This document shows, one piece after another, positions 2,591-8,315 of a stretch of 64,000 nucleotides of DNA (the first letter of the stretch is position 1; each line of letters opens with the position of its first letter). Made by a program: the position numbers and the translations under genes. The stretch lies in the NCBI GenBank assembly GCA_022824405.1, contig JAJDZZ010000058.1, positions 1-64,000 of the forward strand, written 5' to 3'. The notes under the pieces are model-generated. The model had not been told where the DNA came from and did not search any database. It worked only from the letters and a program-made list of their open reading frames with translations. Source of the DNA: Opitutales bacterium. GTDB taxonomy: Bacteria > Verrucomicrobiota > Verrucomicrobiia > Opitutales > UBA2995.

Positions 2591-2894
2591 GGCAGGTTTT
2601 GGGTAAGGATTTGGAAACCTTGATTTGCCCGCCAAAGTACAACGCGCTCCAATTTGGTAAAGGGAAAAGACCACGGATTACACGGATGAGCACGGATAGG
2701 AAAAATAGCCACAAAATGCACAAAAGACGCAAAAGGGTAGGAAATCGGAAGATGACCCTCGCCAGGAACGCAAAAGGCGCAGATACATGGATGAAAGAAA
2801 ATATTGAAAGCCCCAGGTACTCCGTATTTTTTGTGCACTACACCATTGGCTTGAACTGATTTAGTTTACCCTTTGTGAACCTCAAAATGGAAGA
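2591..2894. repeat. Gene-free gap with an imperfect 9-bp triplicate (nnCACGGAT)
   Basis: This gap between the phosphatase and hicB has no gene. At about 2669-2697 it holds ACCACGGAT, TACACGGAT and GAGCACGGAT in a row, an imperfect trimer with a 9-base period. The same trimer is found interrupted at 4344-4438 and in inverse orientation at 62494-62523. Downstream lies A-rich sequence of the type CCACAAAATGCACAAAAGACGC, which also follows the copy at 4438. It probably carries the hicB promoter near its right end, but no convincing -35/-10 pair was seen. Confidence 0.7.
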
Positions 2895-3254
2895 ATGACA
2901 CCTCCCATGCTAACTACTCGCGTATTGCTGTATCGCGATGAAGGAGAATGGATAGCTCATTCCCTGGAATTGGACTTGGTTGGAACTGGTGAAAACGAGG
3001 AAGAAGCTAAAAAAGAGTTGGTGGGGGCTATCGTTACCCAGGTAGAATTCTGCCATGAAAAAGGGTGGGACCCATTTTCTCCCGCGCCTGAAAATGTTTT
3101 TAAAATTTGGGAAAAGGTTCAACTAGAAACGTGGGAAACTGTGTTGGCTCAAGCCCAAGAGAAAAATCAAGAATACCGTTTTGCCAGTTCATTGAATTTC
3201 CGTTTAAGCGAATCAGAACAAGGTAGAAGGCTTAAATTCCTACAAATGGCATGA
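2895..3254 (+). CDS. hicB: HicB-type antitoxin
   Basis: A 119-residue protein whose first 50 residues have the HicB pattern: a short beta strand (RVLLYRDEGEWIAHS), the LELDLVGTGENEEEA segment and an amphipathic helix, i.e. the partial RNase H-like fold that masks HicA. The C-terminal half has no clear helix-turn-helix or ribbon-helix-helix, so autoregulation is uncertain. It precedes the toxin gene by 3 bases. This is the reverse of the common hicA-hicB order, though hicB-first pairs are known. The pair is more AT-rich than its neighbours, which suggests recent acquisition. Confidence 0.8.
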   Translation: MTPPMLTTRVLLYRDEGEWIAHSLELDLVGTGENEEEAKKELVGAIVTQVEFCHEKGWDPFSPAPENVFKIWEKVQLETWETVLAQAQEKNQEYRFASSLNFRLSESEQGRRLKFLQMA

Positions 3255-3257
3255 GCC

Positions 3258-3482
3258 TTGGCTAAATCTCTCAAAACCCGGGAAGTTCTAAAAATTCTTA
3301 GGACATACGATAACGGTTTTACGTATTCCTCTGGCAAGGGGCCAGGATCACATGGAACCATTTACCATGAAGGGCTGAGACGCTCGTGCCAGATCCCCAA
3401 TCATAAGGGCAGAGATGTGAGTAAGCATGTGCTTGGCGTAATTAAACGCAGATTTAATTTACCAAAAGACATTTTTAATTGA
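3258..3482 (+). CDS. hicA: HicA-type mRNA interferase toxin
   Basis: A 74-residue basic protein beginning at a TTG codon. The N-terminal helix (LKTREVLKILRTY), the glycine-rich GKGPGSHGTI segment with the conserved GSH catalytic histidine, and the final NHKGRDVSKHVLGVIKR segment fit the double-stranded-RNA-binding-like fold of HicA, which cleaves mRNA until neutralised by HicB. The gene starts 3 bases after the hicB stop, so translation is coupled. The weak TTG start and second position would keep toxin output below antitoxin output. No other in-frame ATG exists upstream without crossing the hicB stop. Confidence 0.85.
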   Translation: MAKSLKTREVLKILRTYDNGFTYSSGKGPGSHGTIYHEGLRRSCQIPNHKGRDVSKHVLGVIKRRFNLPKDIFN

Positions 3483-3593
3483 GGAGGAGCAACGATCCGC
3501 ATTCCATTTCAAGGGGAGGGTTGGTCGATAAAACCAGCTAAATCTCAGCAAGTTGCTGGATTCTAAGAACCATCGCTGGTATGGAGTGGGATT

Positions 3594-4307
3594 ATGCGCG
3601 ACTATGGCAAAATCCTGGATCGTCTGAATACGGCCAATCTGGATTTTTTGACGAAAATCGGTACGGTACAGGGTTATCCCATATTCATGGTTCAATTGGG
3701 ATCCGAGACCGGTGAACGTGAAAACATCCTCATAACAGGCGGTGTTCACGGCGATGAACCGGCGGGCGTGGAGGCATCGTTAAGGTTTTTGGAACGGGAC
3801 AACGGAGCGCTTCTGGAACGATTCAGGTTTTGGGTCATTCCCTGTATCAATCCCTACGGGTACGTGCATGATACACGGGAAAATCGTGAAGGTGCGGACA
3901 TTAACCGCTCCTTTGAAACGGAAGAGGTGTTGGAGGCATCCATCGTCAAACGCGCCATTGCCCAAACCCAATTCTCCTTCGCGATAGATTTCCACGAGGA
4001 CTGCGATGCGACCGGGTTCTACCTTTACGAAGGCAAAAGGGATAAGCAGTACATCGGACCCCAAATCGCTGCCGTCGTCAAAAACATCGGCCCCATGGAT
4101 GACGACGATTCAGGCGAAAGCGAAGTGCTGATCGGCGATGGGGTTTATGAGGTGGCTCAGGAATGGGGTGTTCAGGGTTTAACGCCCTACCTCCTGCGCT
4201 TCCACACCGAGCATGCCATCATCAGCGAAACGCCGACCACATGGCCGCTCGAGCAACGTTCCGCCCTCCATTTGGCGGTGTTGGACGCGGTGTTGCAAAG
4301 AAATTGA
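3594..4307 (+). CDS. M14-family zinc carboxypeptidase-like protein
   Basis: A 237-residue protein with the zinc site of peptidase family M14 and succinylglutamate desuccinylase-like enzymes: HGDEPAG near residues 51-57 gives the His and Glu ligands, DFHED near 129 the third ligand, and ISETPT near the C terminus carries the candidate catalytic glutamate. An Asn-Pro-x-G and an INRSF segment match the substrate-binding Asn-Arg of the family. No signal peptide is visible, so a cytoplasmic role in trimming a peptide or an N-acyl amino acid is likely. It is short for a classical carboxypeptidase. The substrate is unknown. Confidence 0.8.
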   Translation: MRDYGKILDRLNTANLDFLTKIGTVQGYPIFMVQLGSETGERENILITGGVHGDEPAGVEASLRFLERDNGALLERFRFWVIPCINPYGYVHDTRENREGADINRSFETEEVLEASIVKRAIAQTQFSFAIDFHEDCDATGFYLYEGKRDKQYIGPQIAAVVKNIGPMDDDDSGESEVLIGDGVYEVAQEWGVQGLTPYLLRFHTEHAIISETPTTWPLEQRSALHLAVLDAVLQRN

Positions 4308-4312
4308 CTCTC

Positions 4313-4440
4313 GCAAAGATCGCCGAGAACGCGAAGGGAAACTAACCACGGACCCCGCTTCGCCCAAGGGCTTCGGTAGGACACGTTACACGGATCCCGC
4401 TTCGCCTGAAGGCTACGGCAGGACACGTGAGCACGGATGG
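4313..4440. repeat. Composite repeat with two 33-bp hairpin inserts
   Basis: From 4313 there is a GCnAAGnnC 9-mer trimer, followed by the CACGGAT trimer seen uninterrupted at 2669. Here it is split twice: a 33-base insert at 4353-4385 follows ACCACGGA and another at 4395-4427 follows TTACACGGA. Both inserts have the form nCCCGCTTCGCC...GGCTnCGG...AGGACACG and can fold around GCC/GGC and CCG/CGG arms. Removing both restores the simple trimer. No gene lies between 4308 and 4557. Confidence 0.85.
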
Positions 4441-4557
4441 GGAAAATATAGCCCCAAGAGCCACAAAAGATTCAAAAAGGATGAAGAAGCGCTGAAGGCC
4501 TTCAGCGAATTGGGAAGGAGGTTTTGGTTGCTGGATGCTATCTCCAATCCGGCTAAA

Positions 4558-5916
4558 TCAGGCGGGCCTACTCTTCCGAAACTTGTGGCCGATCCAGGAT
4601 ACCAAAGCGATCAGAATCAAGGTCAGACCGACCATTGGGAGGAAAACGGCCAAGGCGATGGTCACCCAGGCTATCCACCGCGGCACCGTCTTGGGGGGCG
4701 GTTTGCCGGGCGCGCCGAATTTACCGCTTGGCCGCCTTCTCCACCACATCCATACCCCGGTTGCCGACATGGCGATGATCAGCAGGCAACTGATAAAGGC
4801 CAAAACCTTGGTTGGAAATCCGAAGATGGTTCCCGTATGAATGGGGTAAAACAAAAAGGTGAGTTTTGCTCCCAGCGATAAATCCTCGTCCGTCTCGGCC
4901 AACAGCACTTCCCCTGAGTATTGATCCACAATGGCGATAATTTTCTCACCAAAGGGATCCATGATGTTGTTAAAATAACGGAAGGTTTCATCTGTTCCAT
5001 GCTTGGGGATGGACAAGCTGTGCAGGGTGGCCGGTTCGGTGGCCAAAGAAGTGACACTGTGGAAAACCTTGTCGAGGGAGGCCTGGGCCGGCGCTTCCCG
5101 ACCTTCTTCGATCACTGACTTGGGGGGGCTTAGAAAGGCCTGGGGCATGGCGCCGGTCAGGGAATGGCCGATAAACCAGGCCCGGCCCCAAAATTGGGTG
5201 AAGAGCAGACCTGTGAACATAATTGCTACGGCAAAAACAGCGAAATACATGCCGGGTACGGTATGCCAGTCGCGCAGGATCGTTTTGAAGCGGCCGGTAA
5301 TGCGAGGCAGCCATACCCCCCAGACCTTCTCTTTTTGCCGGGGCCACCATAGGTATAGTCCGGCCAAAACGGAGACAATTCCCCAGCAGGTTGCCGTCTC
5401 GGTGGCGACGCGCCCAGGGACACCTGCATAAAGCGTGCGGTGAATTTTGAGGATCACTCCAAAAAACCCCTCATCGTAAGCGAGAGCGCCCAATATCCGG
5501 CCCCTATACTGATCGTAATAGACGGTGTGAAAAACCAATTCTCCATCCGGTCCCTCCCTTTGCATTGAACTCGACCAGGAAATATCATTGCCGTAGCGCA
5601 TATTGATATTGCGCATCTGAAATTCGGGATAGGCAGATTGGATGTCCGCCTGCATCCGGTCCAGGGAGACGGTGTCTCCGCTTGGATTCACCTGGAACAA
5701 TTCCGGGTAGAATATGGGGTTCAATTCCTCCTGAAATACCCAGAGGGCGCCGGTCGTTGCCATTGCGATCAAAAAGGGCGAGGCTAACAAACCTGCCCAG
5801 AAATGCCACCTCCATACCGCCTTGTAGACGCGTGTGGAAAAGGAATTGTTTGCCTGTTTGTCGAACCGCTCGGCTGGGGTCGTCGCGGGAGCAACCGTGG
5901 GGGCTGGGCTTTCCAT
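4558..5916 (-). CDS. PepSY-associated transmembrane protein (putative ferric/siderophore reductase)
   Basis: A 452-residue inner-membrane protein of the PepSY_TM family. A hydrophobic segment near residues 37-58 (WAGLLASPFLIAMATTGALW) is followed by a periplasmic PepSY region and KIHRTLYAGVPGR with the family histidine, then further membrane segments near 180, 230 and 370, another histidine motif (FYPIHTGTIFG near 358) and a final pair of helices after 415. Such proteins usually sit beside TonB-dependent siderophore receptors and are thought to reduce iron at the membrane. Here the gene follows a TonB receptor gene by 76 bases on the same strand, consistent with an iron-uptake operon. That receptor is broken by a stop. 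Confidence 0.85.
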   Translation of the reverse strand: MESPAPTVAPATTPAERFDKQANNSFSTRVYKAVWRWHFWAGLLASPFLIAMATTGALWVFQEELNPIFYPELFQVNPSGDTVSLDRMQADIQSAYPEFQMRNINMRYGNDISWSSSMQREGPDGELVFHTVYYDQYRGRILGALAYDEGFFGVILKIHRTLYAGVPGRVATETATCWGIVSVLAGLYLWWPRQKEKVWGVWLPRITGRFKTILRDWHTVPGMYFAVFAVAIMFTGLLFTQFWGRAWFIGHSLTGAMPQAFLSPPKSVIEEGREAPAQASLDKVFHSVTSLATEPATLHSLSIPKHGTDETFRYFNNIMDPFGEKIIAIVDQYSGEVLLAETDEDLSLGAKLTFLFYPIHTGTIFGFPTKVLAFISCLLIIAMSATGVWMWWRRRPSGKFGAPGKPPPKTVPRWIAWVTIALAVFLPMVGLTLILIALVSWIGHKFRKSRPA

Positions 5917-5992
5917 TTGAGTGTCCAGGGTTCCTCGCGTTAATGAAACCGGGAATCAGGCGGTAAAACCGAGATAAAGGTAAACCAATTGG

Positions 5993-8125
5993 TTAGAAAT
6001 TTGCGTTAACGTTTATACCGACTACCCGGGAATCGCCGGCGCTTCCGAATCCATCGGCCCTTCTTCTGGCCAGATACTGCCGGTCGAAGAGATTGCGACT
6101 GTAGAGGTAAACGGACCAGAAGCTGTTGGACTGGTAACCGAATCGGGCATTTACCAGGAAAAAGGAACTGTTCAGTTCTCCGGGATCGTTGTTTACGGTG
6201 TAAAAACTTTTATCGGTGAAGCTGCCGTCCACGGCGATTTCAAATCCATTGTCAAAATCATAATCACCGCCAATGGAACCGGTCCATTGAGGCGCTTGAG
6301 AAAACTGATTTCCAGCCAGGCTGATCGGGTTTCTCATTGCGTCGGCAACCACATACTCGTCCAACTGGGTTTTGGTATAACCAACGTTAAAGAATAAGGT
6401 GAGCTGATTGGTGGCGTTGAGGTTGGTTTCAAGTTCAAAACCGTAGAGGGTGGCGGCGCCTGCATTTTCAATTCTGGAATCCAAAAATGTGCCCGATGGG
6501 CCCGGAAGGCTGAGTTGCATGTCCTTATAGTCGGTATGGAAGAAATTGGCGTTGGCCCGGAGTCGTCCTCCCAGGGAAAGGGATCGTAGAGAGTACTCAA
6601 GGTTGGTGGTGAATTCAGGATCATATTCGTATTGCTGACTACTTATGAAATCGGTTGCACTTCCACCGGCTCGATATCCACGCTGGACGGTGAAGCCATG
6701 ACTGATGTCTTCAGATACTTGGTAGACAAGGGCCAATTTGGGCAGAAAGGCTTTATAATCAGCTTCCAGATGGACCGGAGTAGGATCGGCATTGGCTCCC
6801 GGGAAAGGTTCGGGATCGAAAGCGGAAAAATTGGTGGAAACCGATTCCTGATCTTCCGAATCATATCGAATACCTGCGATGAGAGTAATCTTGTCGTTCA
6901 GGTCATATTCCGCCTCACTGAAAAAGGCGCTGTTGCCAATTTCCTCATCAAAGGTGTTTCCGAACCGGGCGGAAGTGCCCGGGGGAAATCCATACCTTGA
7001 GGCATCGGGAACAATCGCGTTGAAAAAGAGATCTTTCTCCGTGTCCCGGAAGAACAAACCACTGGTCCAGCTCAATGATGGGTTGGAATAGTTGAGCTTG
7101 AATTCCTGGCTGTAGGTTGTGTCCAAGACCGTTCTCAGCGCGGGTGTGTTTCGCGGGTTATCGGGCTCGATCGGGAAGTCCAGGATGTAATCACTTTTCA
7201 AATAGCCGGTCTCTGAAATAATCGCCCAGTTGTCGTTAATAACGTAATCCATAAGGAGGTTGGACATGTCGGTAGTCCCCTCCGAGTTGTTTACCTGATC
7301 CCCTATTCGCTTTTCGGGAAACACATCCTGGTGGATTCCTTGGGCTGCCAATCTGTTCTCCGATCGTGTCTAGGTAAAGATCACATCAAAATTTTCCCTC
7401 GGCTGATAGCGCACCTTTCCTCGAAAAGTTCTTAAACTCTCGTCTGCGATATCCTCGCCTGTGAGCCAATGCGCAATATCGCCATCCGACTGGTAGTCCT
7501 CATAGGCCAGCCTGAAAGCCAGGTTTTCACCCAAGGGTTGGTTTGCTGCCACCGCAAACCGTGTCTCATTGAAGGTTCCATAATCGGCACGCAATTTCAG
7601 TTCCTGTTCGAAGATCGGATCCCTGCCACGAAGGATGATGGCCCCTGCCAGAGCATTCTGTCCCTGTTGAGTCGATTGTGGGCCACGTAATACTTCCACT
7701 TGTTCGAGGTCCCAGGTACTGAGCGCCCCCGTATGTAGCGCTTGCCCGTTCGGCACGCTTACCCCATCCACTTGGACGTTTATGGTTTGGCCGCTACCGC
7801 CTCCTACCCCGCCATCGGGAATACCGCGAATGACAAAACCAAATCCTCCCCCTTGGGCGTTGACACCGGGTAGGCGGTCGATCACGTCGAAGAGGTCTTT
7901 GTCTGCGCTTACGTCCAGTTTTTCTCCCAATTCGACGGAAACGCTGGTGTGGGTATCCTGGAGGTCGCGTTCCTGTATCTCACCTGTGATGGTGATGCGA
8001 GGCAGGTCGAAGATATCGCCGAGTTCGTCGTTCTCGTCAAATATGTCATCATCCGCTTGGCCGAAGCAAACTAAGCAAATGAACGCAAGCGAACCTAGCC
8101 AAGCCAAAACAATGGGTCGTTTCAT
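5993..8125 (-). pseudogene. TonB-dependent receptor interrupted by an in-frame TAG
   Basis: Two same-frame pieces make one receptor of about 710 residues. The first 251 residues carry a signal peptide (MKRPIVLAWLGSLAFICLVC), a short acidic stretch with a TonB-box-like LPRITITG and the plug domain with LRGPQSTQQGQNALAG. A TAG at 7370-7372 then ends translation. The same frame continues at once with TRSENRLAAQGIHQ into the beta barrel, ending in the terminal-phenylalanine motif VNANF expected for BAM recognition. There is no frameshift and no missing sequence, so one base change (for example a Tyr codon to TAG) explains it. Other genes here, such as tsf, use TAG as a normal stop. It lies upstream of the PepSY gene. 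A recent pseudogene or a base-call error are the simplest readings. Confidence 0.85.
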
Positions 8126-8202
8126 GGAGCAAAAATGGGTTTAGGGGTGACCGGTTTTTTGACCGGGGTGTGGCGATACTAGTGGGAAGCACCGGTAAAT
8201 TC

Positions 8203-8240
8203 CACCCTGAGACGGATAAAATACACTCCGAGACGGATAA
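8203..8240. promoter_or_regulatory. 17-bp direct repeat spaced two helical turns
   Basis: CACCCTGAGACGGATAA at 8203-8219 and CACTCCGAGACGGATAA at 8224-8240 match at 15 of 17 positions, and their starts are 21 bases apart, placing them on the same face of the helix. They lie in the divergent gap between the TonB receptor (start 8125) and doxX (start 8383). Direct repeats with this spacing are typical of response-regulator sites. The protein is unknown. Confidence 0.55.
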
Positions 8241-8315
8241 TTTTTAGGAATTAGGTTCTAGATTCTGGGAGGAAAGAAACCACTTGCTAGAGGCCAAGGT
8301 ATTTGCACAACCTTC

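Follow-up and report, generated by a model that had tools for sequence, protein, structure and literature searches.

In the window (the whole stretch of 64,000 nucleotides analysed here, from an Opitutales bacterium), the trimer ACCACGGA-TTACACGGA-TGAGCACGGAT is unbroken at one place and broken twice at another, which raises the question of what the intervening sequences are and how they came to lie there. The uninterrupted, or empty, copy ACCACGGATTACACGGATGAGCACGGAT occupies positions 2670-2697 of the plus strand; the first-pass annotation had reported it correctly, though one base too early, at 2669. In the filled copy (4345-4438, same strand), the first unit, which forms the left host sequence (4345-4352), is followed by insert 1, CCCCGCTTCGCCCAAGGGCTTCGGTAGGACACG (4353-4385), the second unit (4386-4394) by insert 2, TCCCGCTTCGCCTGAAGGCTACGGCAGGACACG (4395-4427), and the third unit closes the array (4428-4438). 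Both inserts stand after CACGGA and before T and, as described earlier, each is exactly 33 bp long; they match at 27 of 33 positions and differ at six, which agrees with the 82% likeness first given. Each ends in a CANG tail, CACG in insert 1 (4382-4385) and at 4424-4427 in insert 2. The pair lies between two gene ends, about 45-120 bp beyond the end of a gene for an M14/AstE-AspA-type desuccinylase-like protein (3594-4307, plus strand), the convergent neighbour being a gene for a PepSY-associated membrane protein (4558-5916, minus strand). The trimer was absent from 100 shuffles of the window, and reversed-pattern controls for trimer and insert gave zero matches in the whole genome; a chance origin of the pattern is excluded.

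The trimer does host the inserts, as the first-pass annotation proposed, but it is a dispersed repeat and not a unique site. Pattern searches, on which all whole-genome counts for the window genome are based, found 131 copies at ≤3 mismatches in both orientations (3.39 Mb, 92 contigs), nearly all of them empty and only a handful filled. The intergenic gaps are mosaics of such dispersed phrases of 25-35 bp (CACGGAT, ACAGGAT, CACAGAG, GCAAAG, AATTAGG, GATCGTGATC). A further hairpin-in-phrase pattern is seen at loci L037, L042, L061 and similar ones of the same genome, where short hairpins such as TGGAGCTACGCTCCA stand between AACAGGA units. Since the CACGGAT trimer was also recovered in 56 stretches of the IMG/VR viral contig collection (L269-L324), the phrase may extend far beyond the genus. 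The 29 IMG/VR matches of CACGGATCCnnCTTCGCC included no convincing insert copy, and most resemble coding sequence. A literature search for the letters of the trimer and related phrases found no paper.

Searches with the element alone identified 9 copies in the window genome; a sister species of the same genus, represented by the MAG Opitutia bacterium isolate 287ce (G001/G132, about 91% complete), has at least 49. Among 132 relatives, only these two genomes contain the element, and in a scan of bacteria and archaea covering 84,980 species with one genome per species, MAG 287ce was the only match. Outside the window locus, the window-genome copies are C33 (AACCACGGA^TTTCACTGAT, the caret marking the insertion point), C19 (AACATGGA^TGCACAGGAT, with the empty form AACATGGATGCACAGGATGGACAGGAT at L011), C61 in a GCTTGA host, C67 in an ATTGGA host, C2, the degenerate C54 and a 36-bp copy on C19. 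At the window locus itself, the sister lacks the 5.6 kb that hold the inserts (2662-8272), so that the two species do not allow a comparison there. The missing segment comprises a HicA-like small ORF (below the Pfam cut-off) with its upstream neighbour and the desuccinylase-like, PepSY and TonB-type genes, and the empty trimer at 2670 lies at its left edge.

Dissection of 50 copies from both genomes revealed a unit of constant length, since 41 are exactly 33 bp. Seven others measure 63 bp because a 30-bp hairpin occupies the loop of the 33-mer. This hairpin, ACCGTGCTTCGCAACGCTTCGCAGGTCAAG, also ends in CAAG and is nested in this way in seven G132 copies (L139, L140, L151, L080 and others); one copy holds a shorter, 20-bp form. 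A second 33-mer type (type B), TCCGCCTTCGCCGAAGGTCTACGGCGTGACAGG, has the same outline and follows (G)CACA in another phrase. In the copy table, for which the right arm of the element was the sole selection criterion, the left flank ends in GGA in 36 of 50 cases (CACGGA in 20, CATGGA in 14), so that the insert does not always follow CACGGA, as had been suggested for a site-specific element. The remaining 14 copies lie in a small number of other repeats, and the insert is thus not strictly site-specific. Wherever it follows CA(C/T)GGA, its orientation is fixed, and no reversed copy was found in the trimer. Beyond phrase and element, the identity between flanks drops to chance (about 0.25) within 10-40 bp, indicating that the loci are unrelated.

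Further filled and empty sites concur with the original proposal that such a pair within one genome defines the ends of the insert. These are CATGGA^TGCACAGG (L034 vs L011), GATGCCT^ACGGC (L103 vs L042) and GCTTGA^TCCGGC (L100 vs L017); the empty forms of the latter two hosts, which do not end in GGA, are thus present in the genus. No target duplication was detected at the filled/empty pairs. Some filled sites are one base off the empty phrase, for instance TTGCACAGG compared with TGCACAGG, which implies that not every event was letter-exact.

To look beyond the genus, 388 genomes of the phylum were scanned without regard to the ends, accepting any insert of 13-43 bp between the first two trimer units. 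Outside the genus, the scan returned one hairpin insert, TCCTCCTTCGCCAAGGCTTCGGAGGACAAG in G376, which belongs to another class; it lies at the same point of the trimer and has the same ends (TCC...GGACANG) as the window family. Extending the search to its class brought in G685, with 12 matches, and G687, and a broader pattern, CACGGATCC...GGACAnGT, yielded mostly single, chance-like matches outside these three genomes. The 33-mer of G685, TCCTCCGTCGC(C/T)CTG(T/C)G(G/A)GCTATGGAGGACAAG, is found in three hosts: GGCT^TCG (within a 30-bp copy), GGGACT^ACGGCG and CGCAAA^GTGCG. Since the neighbouring bases differ among these hosts, the ends of the unit are fixed. Near-identical empty phrases, CGCAAAGGCGCCAAG, exist for the CGCAAA^GTGCG host, and the first host provides a filled/empty pair of a hairpin inside a hairpin, with the outer 30-bp hairpin interrupted at L204 and intact at L206 and L211. 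Collectively, these sites describe a discrete unit with constant ends, present in several unrelated hosts with empty forms, without target duplication and with nesting, which has undergone separate expansions in several genomes of the Verrucomicrobiota.

The unit can be written as TCCnnn-...-nnnGGA, a stem of six pairs, followed by the unpaired 4-nt CANG tail, with a total length of 30-33 bp. On the complementary strand, this corresponds to a CNTG tag immediately 5' of the six-pair hairpin, and the terminal variants CGTG, CTTG, CCTG and CATG are represented across both classes. On this strand, 97.6% of cells pair, against at most 55% when the partners are slid. The first-pass annotation ascribed a common hairpin plan to the two window inserts; the plan is shared, but the hairpin is weak in both. 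On the plus strand, they fold no better than shuffled sequences (z +1.45 and +0.61), and their full six-pair stem closes solely on the complementary strand, where the C-A mismatch becomes a T-G wobble. The G685 33-mer, on the other hand, folds far better than its shuffles (z -2.8 to -3.6). Paired changes are found in the stem, from T-A to G-C and from C-G to A-T in the class-2 set, and families differ at the fifth pair, C-G in some and G-C in others, with 100% paired. Sliding the stem partners abolishes the two-sided changes; shuffled controls attain the covariation score in 11-28 of 500 cases, a margin that is only moderate because distinct sequences are few. Type A and type B copies also carry an internal GTAG on the complement, which in the other class is ATAG or GAAG (G685/G376).

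On balance, these features lead us to regard the 33-mers as an insertion module akin to REPs, built of a single stem-loop and the unpaired CANG tail (a CNTG tag on the complement); its mode of movement is inferred. In the founding insertions, a single-stranded hairpin with its tag would have been joined to an exposed strand at a favoured position; the hairpin, the 4-nt tag, the fixed strand and the lack of duplication would be consistent with HUH/IS200-like chemistry. Gene conversion or template switching may then have produced many of the later copies, by transferring an already filled host phrase into other phrases, and would also yield chimeric flanks. That conversion between phrase copies takes part as well is suggested because the tail letter follows the host and some copies have chimeric flanks. 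In the sister, CATGGA goes with CAAG (11:3) and CACGGA with CAGG (15:3; Fisher p = 0.0009, a figure that serves as a guide since the copies are not independent). This association implies that many copies are not independent insertions. Likewise, the copy at L113 combines a GATGCCT left side with a trimer right side, and L144 and L099 are similar.

The same observations could be taken further, by assuming that the hairpin is not mobile at all and is an inherited part of the phrase, spread solely through gene conversion or template switching between shared CACGGAT words. Fixed site and orientation would then be automatic, and the tail letter and the chimeric copies would be accounted for. Furthermore, at four orthologous gaps (L017/L072, L031/L113, L033/L136 and L043/L079), the phrase arrays of the two sister species have almost nothing in common, whereas the flanking genes are 84-90% identical. 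However, a 33-mer with the same ends occurs in hosts that have no words in common (GCT^TCG, ACT^ACGGCG and CGCAAA^GTGCG in G685; GATGCCT^ACGGC), and identical ends in another class are left unexplained. We therefore consider exchange between phrases rather unlikely as the sole cause.

Another candidate is an ordinary REP element that owes its mobility to a RAYT (TnpA-REP) transposase encoded in the same genome. The layout is shared, with a 4-nt tag, a stem-loop, an intergenic position and strand specificity; Y1 genes are present in the window genome (G000), G685, G376 and G687, and the internal GTAG of type A and B copies recalls a known REP tag. The first-pass annotation advised a search for such a gene, and the search did not connect one with the inserts. 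The window genome has seven Y1_Tnp matches, including a small RAYT-like gene at L070 (G000:C76 near 8.8 kb), which is flanked on both sides by a different, GTAG-tagged hairpin, GTAGGGCAAGAGCATCCTTGCTCTGCC; this gene and its hairpins are a classical RAYT/REP pair. Among 35 Y1 loci, no type A copy was found beside any Y1 gene, and the only type B copy lay some 400 bp beyond L070, a gene directly flanked by the GTAG hairpins. The sister, the richest in copies, gave no match to PF01797 (Y1_Tnp) in its MAG of about 91% completeness. G685 has eleven matches and so does G684, with fourteen in G323, and these last two relatives have no match for the insert. Across G000, G001, G685, G323 and G684, the counts of Y1 genes thus do not seem to track the element. 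In addition, the 5' tag is CNTG, the internal GTAG is not kept in the other class, and the copies are single, whereas in Pseudomonas it is doublets that move, single REPs appearing inert (PMC3116915). Movement by a resident RAYT is accordingly improbable in our view. Elsewhere in the window genome, a Y1 (IS200-like) transposase domain is encoded in frame within a type I restriction HsdR protein (L064:379-3228, G000:C47 near 14.1 kb), between HSDR_N and the helicase; it is flanked by peptide repeats (GGLESPPSV), which are seemingly repeat-encoded.

Comparison with described systems helps to place the module. It resembles GTAG- and CGTC-tagged REPs in that a stem-loop of 20-40 bp carries an unpaired 4-nt tag on one side, in its high copy number in intergenic regions (9 copies in one species and at least 49 in the other, the loci being unrelated) and in its paired stem changes; many REP families are restricted to a species or genus, and some lie inside other dispersed repeats (PMC3733652). 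GTAG repeats abound in Opitutus terrae, which belongs to the same phylum, and the GTAG-23 REP of T. roseum lies within a repeated palindrome, many of whose copies are empty (PMC3733652). The idea of a hairpin within a repeat is therefore not new. Unlike these REPs, the 33-mers carry CNTG in both classes in place of a terminal GTAG or CGTC, form single units of fixed orientation in non-palindromic direct-repeat phrases, nest in each other and have no RAYT beside their copies; their hairpin also differs from that of the L070 pair. Because tag and RAYT linkage depart from the REP definition, we do not file them as GTAG/CGTC REPs. IS200/IS605 elements insert without target duplication, and the 33-mers likewise show none and keep a fixed orientation to the target. 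The targets of the 33-mers, GGA^T, CT^A and others, are not one fixed tetranucleotide, in contrast to those of IS200/IS605, and the role of a transposase is putative. IS200/IS605 enzymes select cut sites by means of a hairpin and tetranucleotide guides, and TnpA-REP enzymes require a tetranucleotide 5' of the hairpin and cut single strands (PMC8266576); the 33-mers share with both the strand-specific arrangement of a hairpin and a 5' tetranucleotide. Like the Pseudomonas REPINs with their RAYT, they are very small non-autonomous hairpin elements with excised or empty sites, but the REPIN unit is an inverted REP doublet and here it is a single hairpin, in a single orientation in its hosts (PMC3116915). 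As far as the literature was searched, novelty lies in the CNTG tag, in the use of one hairpin as the unit, in a host made of direct repeats and in nesting. A MITE, with terminal inverted repeats, target duplication and a DDE transposase, was rejected, given the lack of duplication at the filled/empty pairs and a unit that consists wholly of one hairpin with a one-sided tail.

It is very improbable that the inserts are kept for an RNA or DNA hairpin function (transcript ends, mRNA stability or protein binding), the site being incidental. The position between two converging genes and the stems kept by paired changes would suit such a role, but the stems of the window copies are weak, the distribution is patchy (2 of 132 relatives), an Rfam search of the insert gave no match, and no T run follows the inserts, which also rules out an intrinsic terminator. 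The converse history, raised at first as a refuting case, of an ancestral filled trimer from which the 2670 copy lost its inserts is a logical possibility only and is refuted by the 131 mostly empty trimers.

Although REP hairpins are ancient and abundant, little is understood of how a single one is inserted, because few sites are known in the empty state. For the 33-mers, the host is a repeat with over 100 copies, so that empty controls accompany every filled copy; the ends are defined almost to the base, and an order of events can be read from the nested copies. The insertion reaction and the target rule are thus directly testable in this system, a case in which the tag is unlike the two known ones and the usual enzyme is not evident. 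More speculatively, and with considerable doubt on our part, the 33-mers could belong to a phylum-wide group of single-hairpin elements of 30-33 nt with a CNTG tag, which land in direct-repeat phrases and in each other and owe their movement to an agent other than a RAYT. If so, this class of hairpins would be among the smallest insertion units known.
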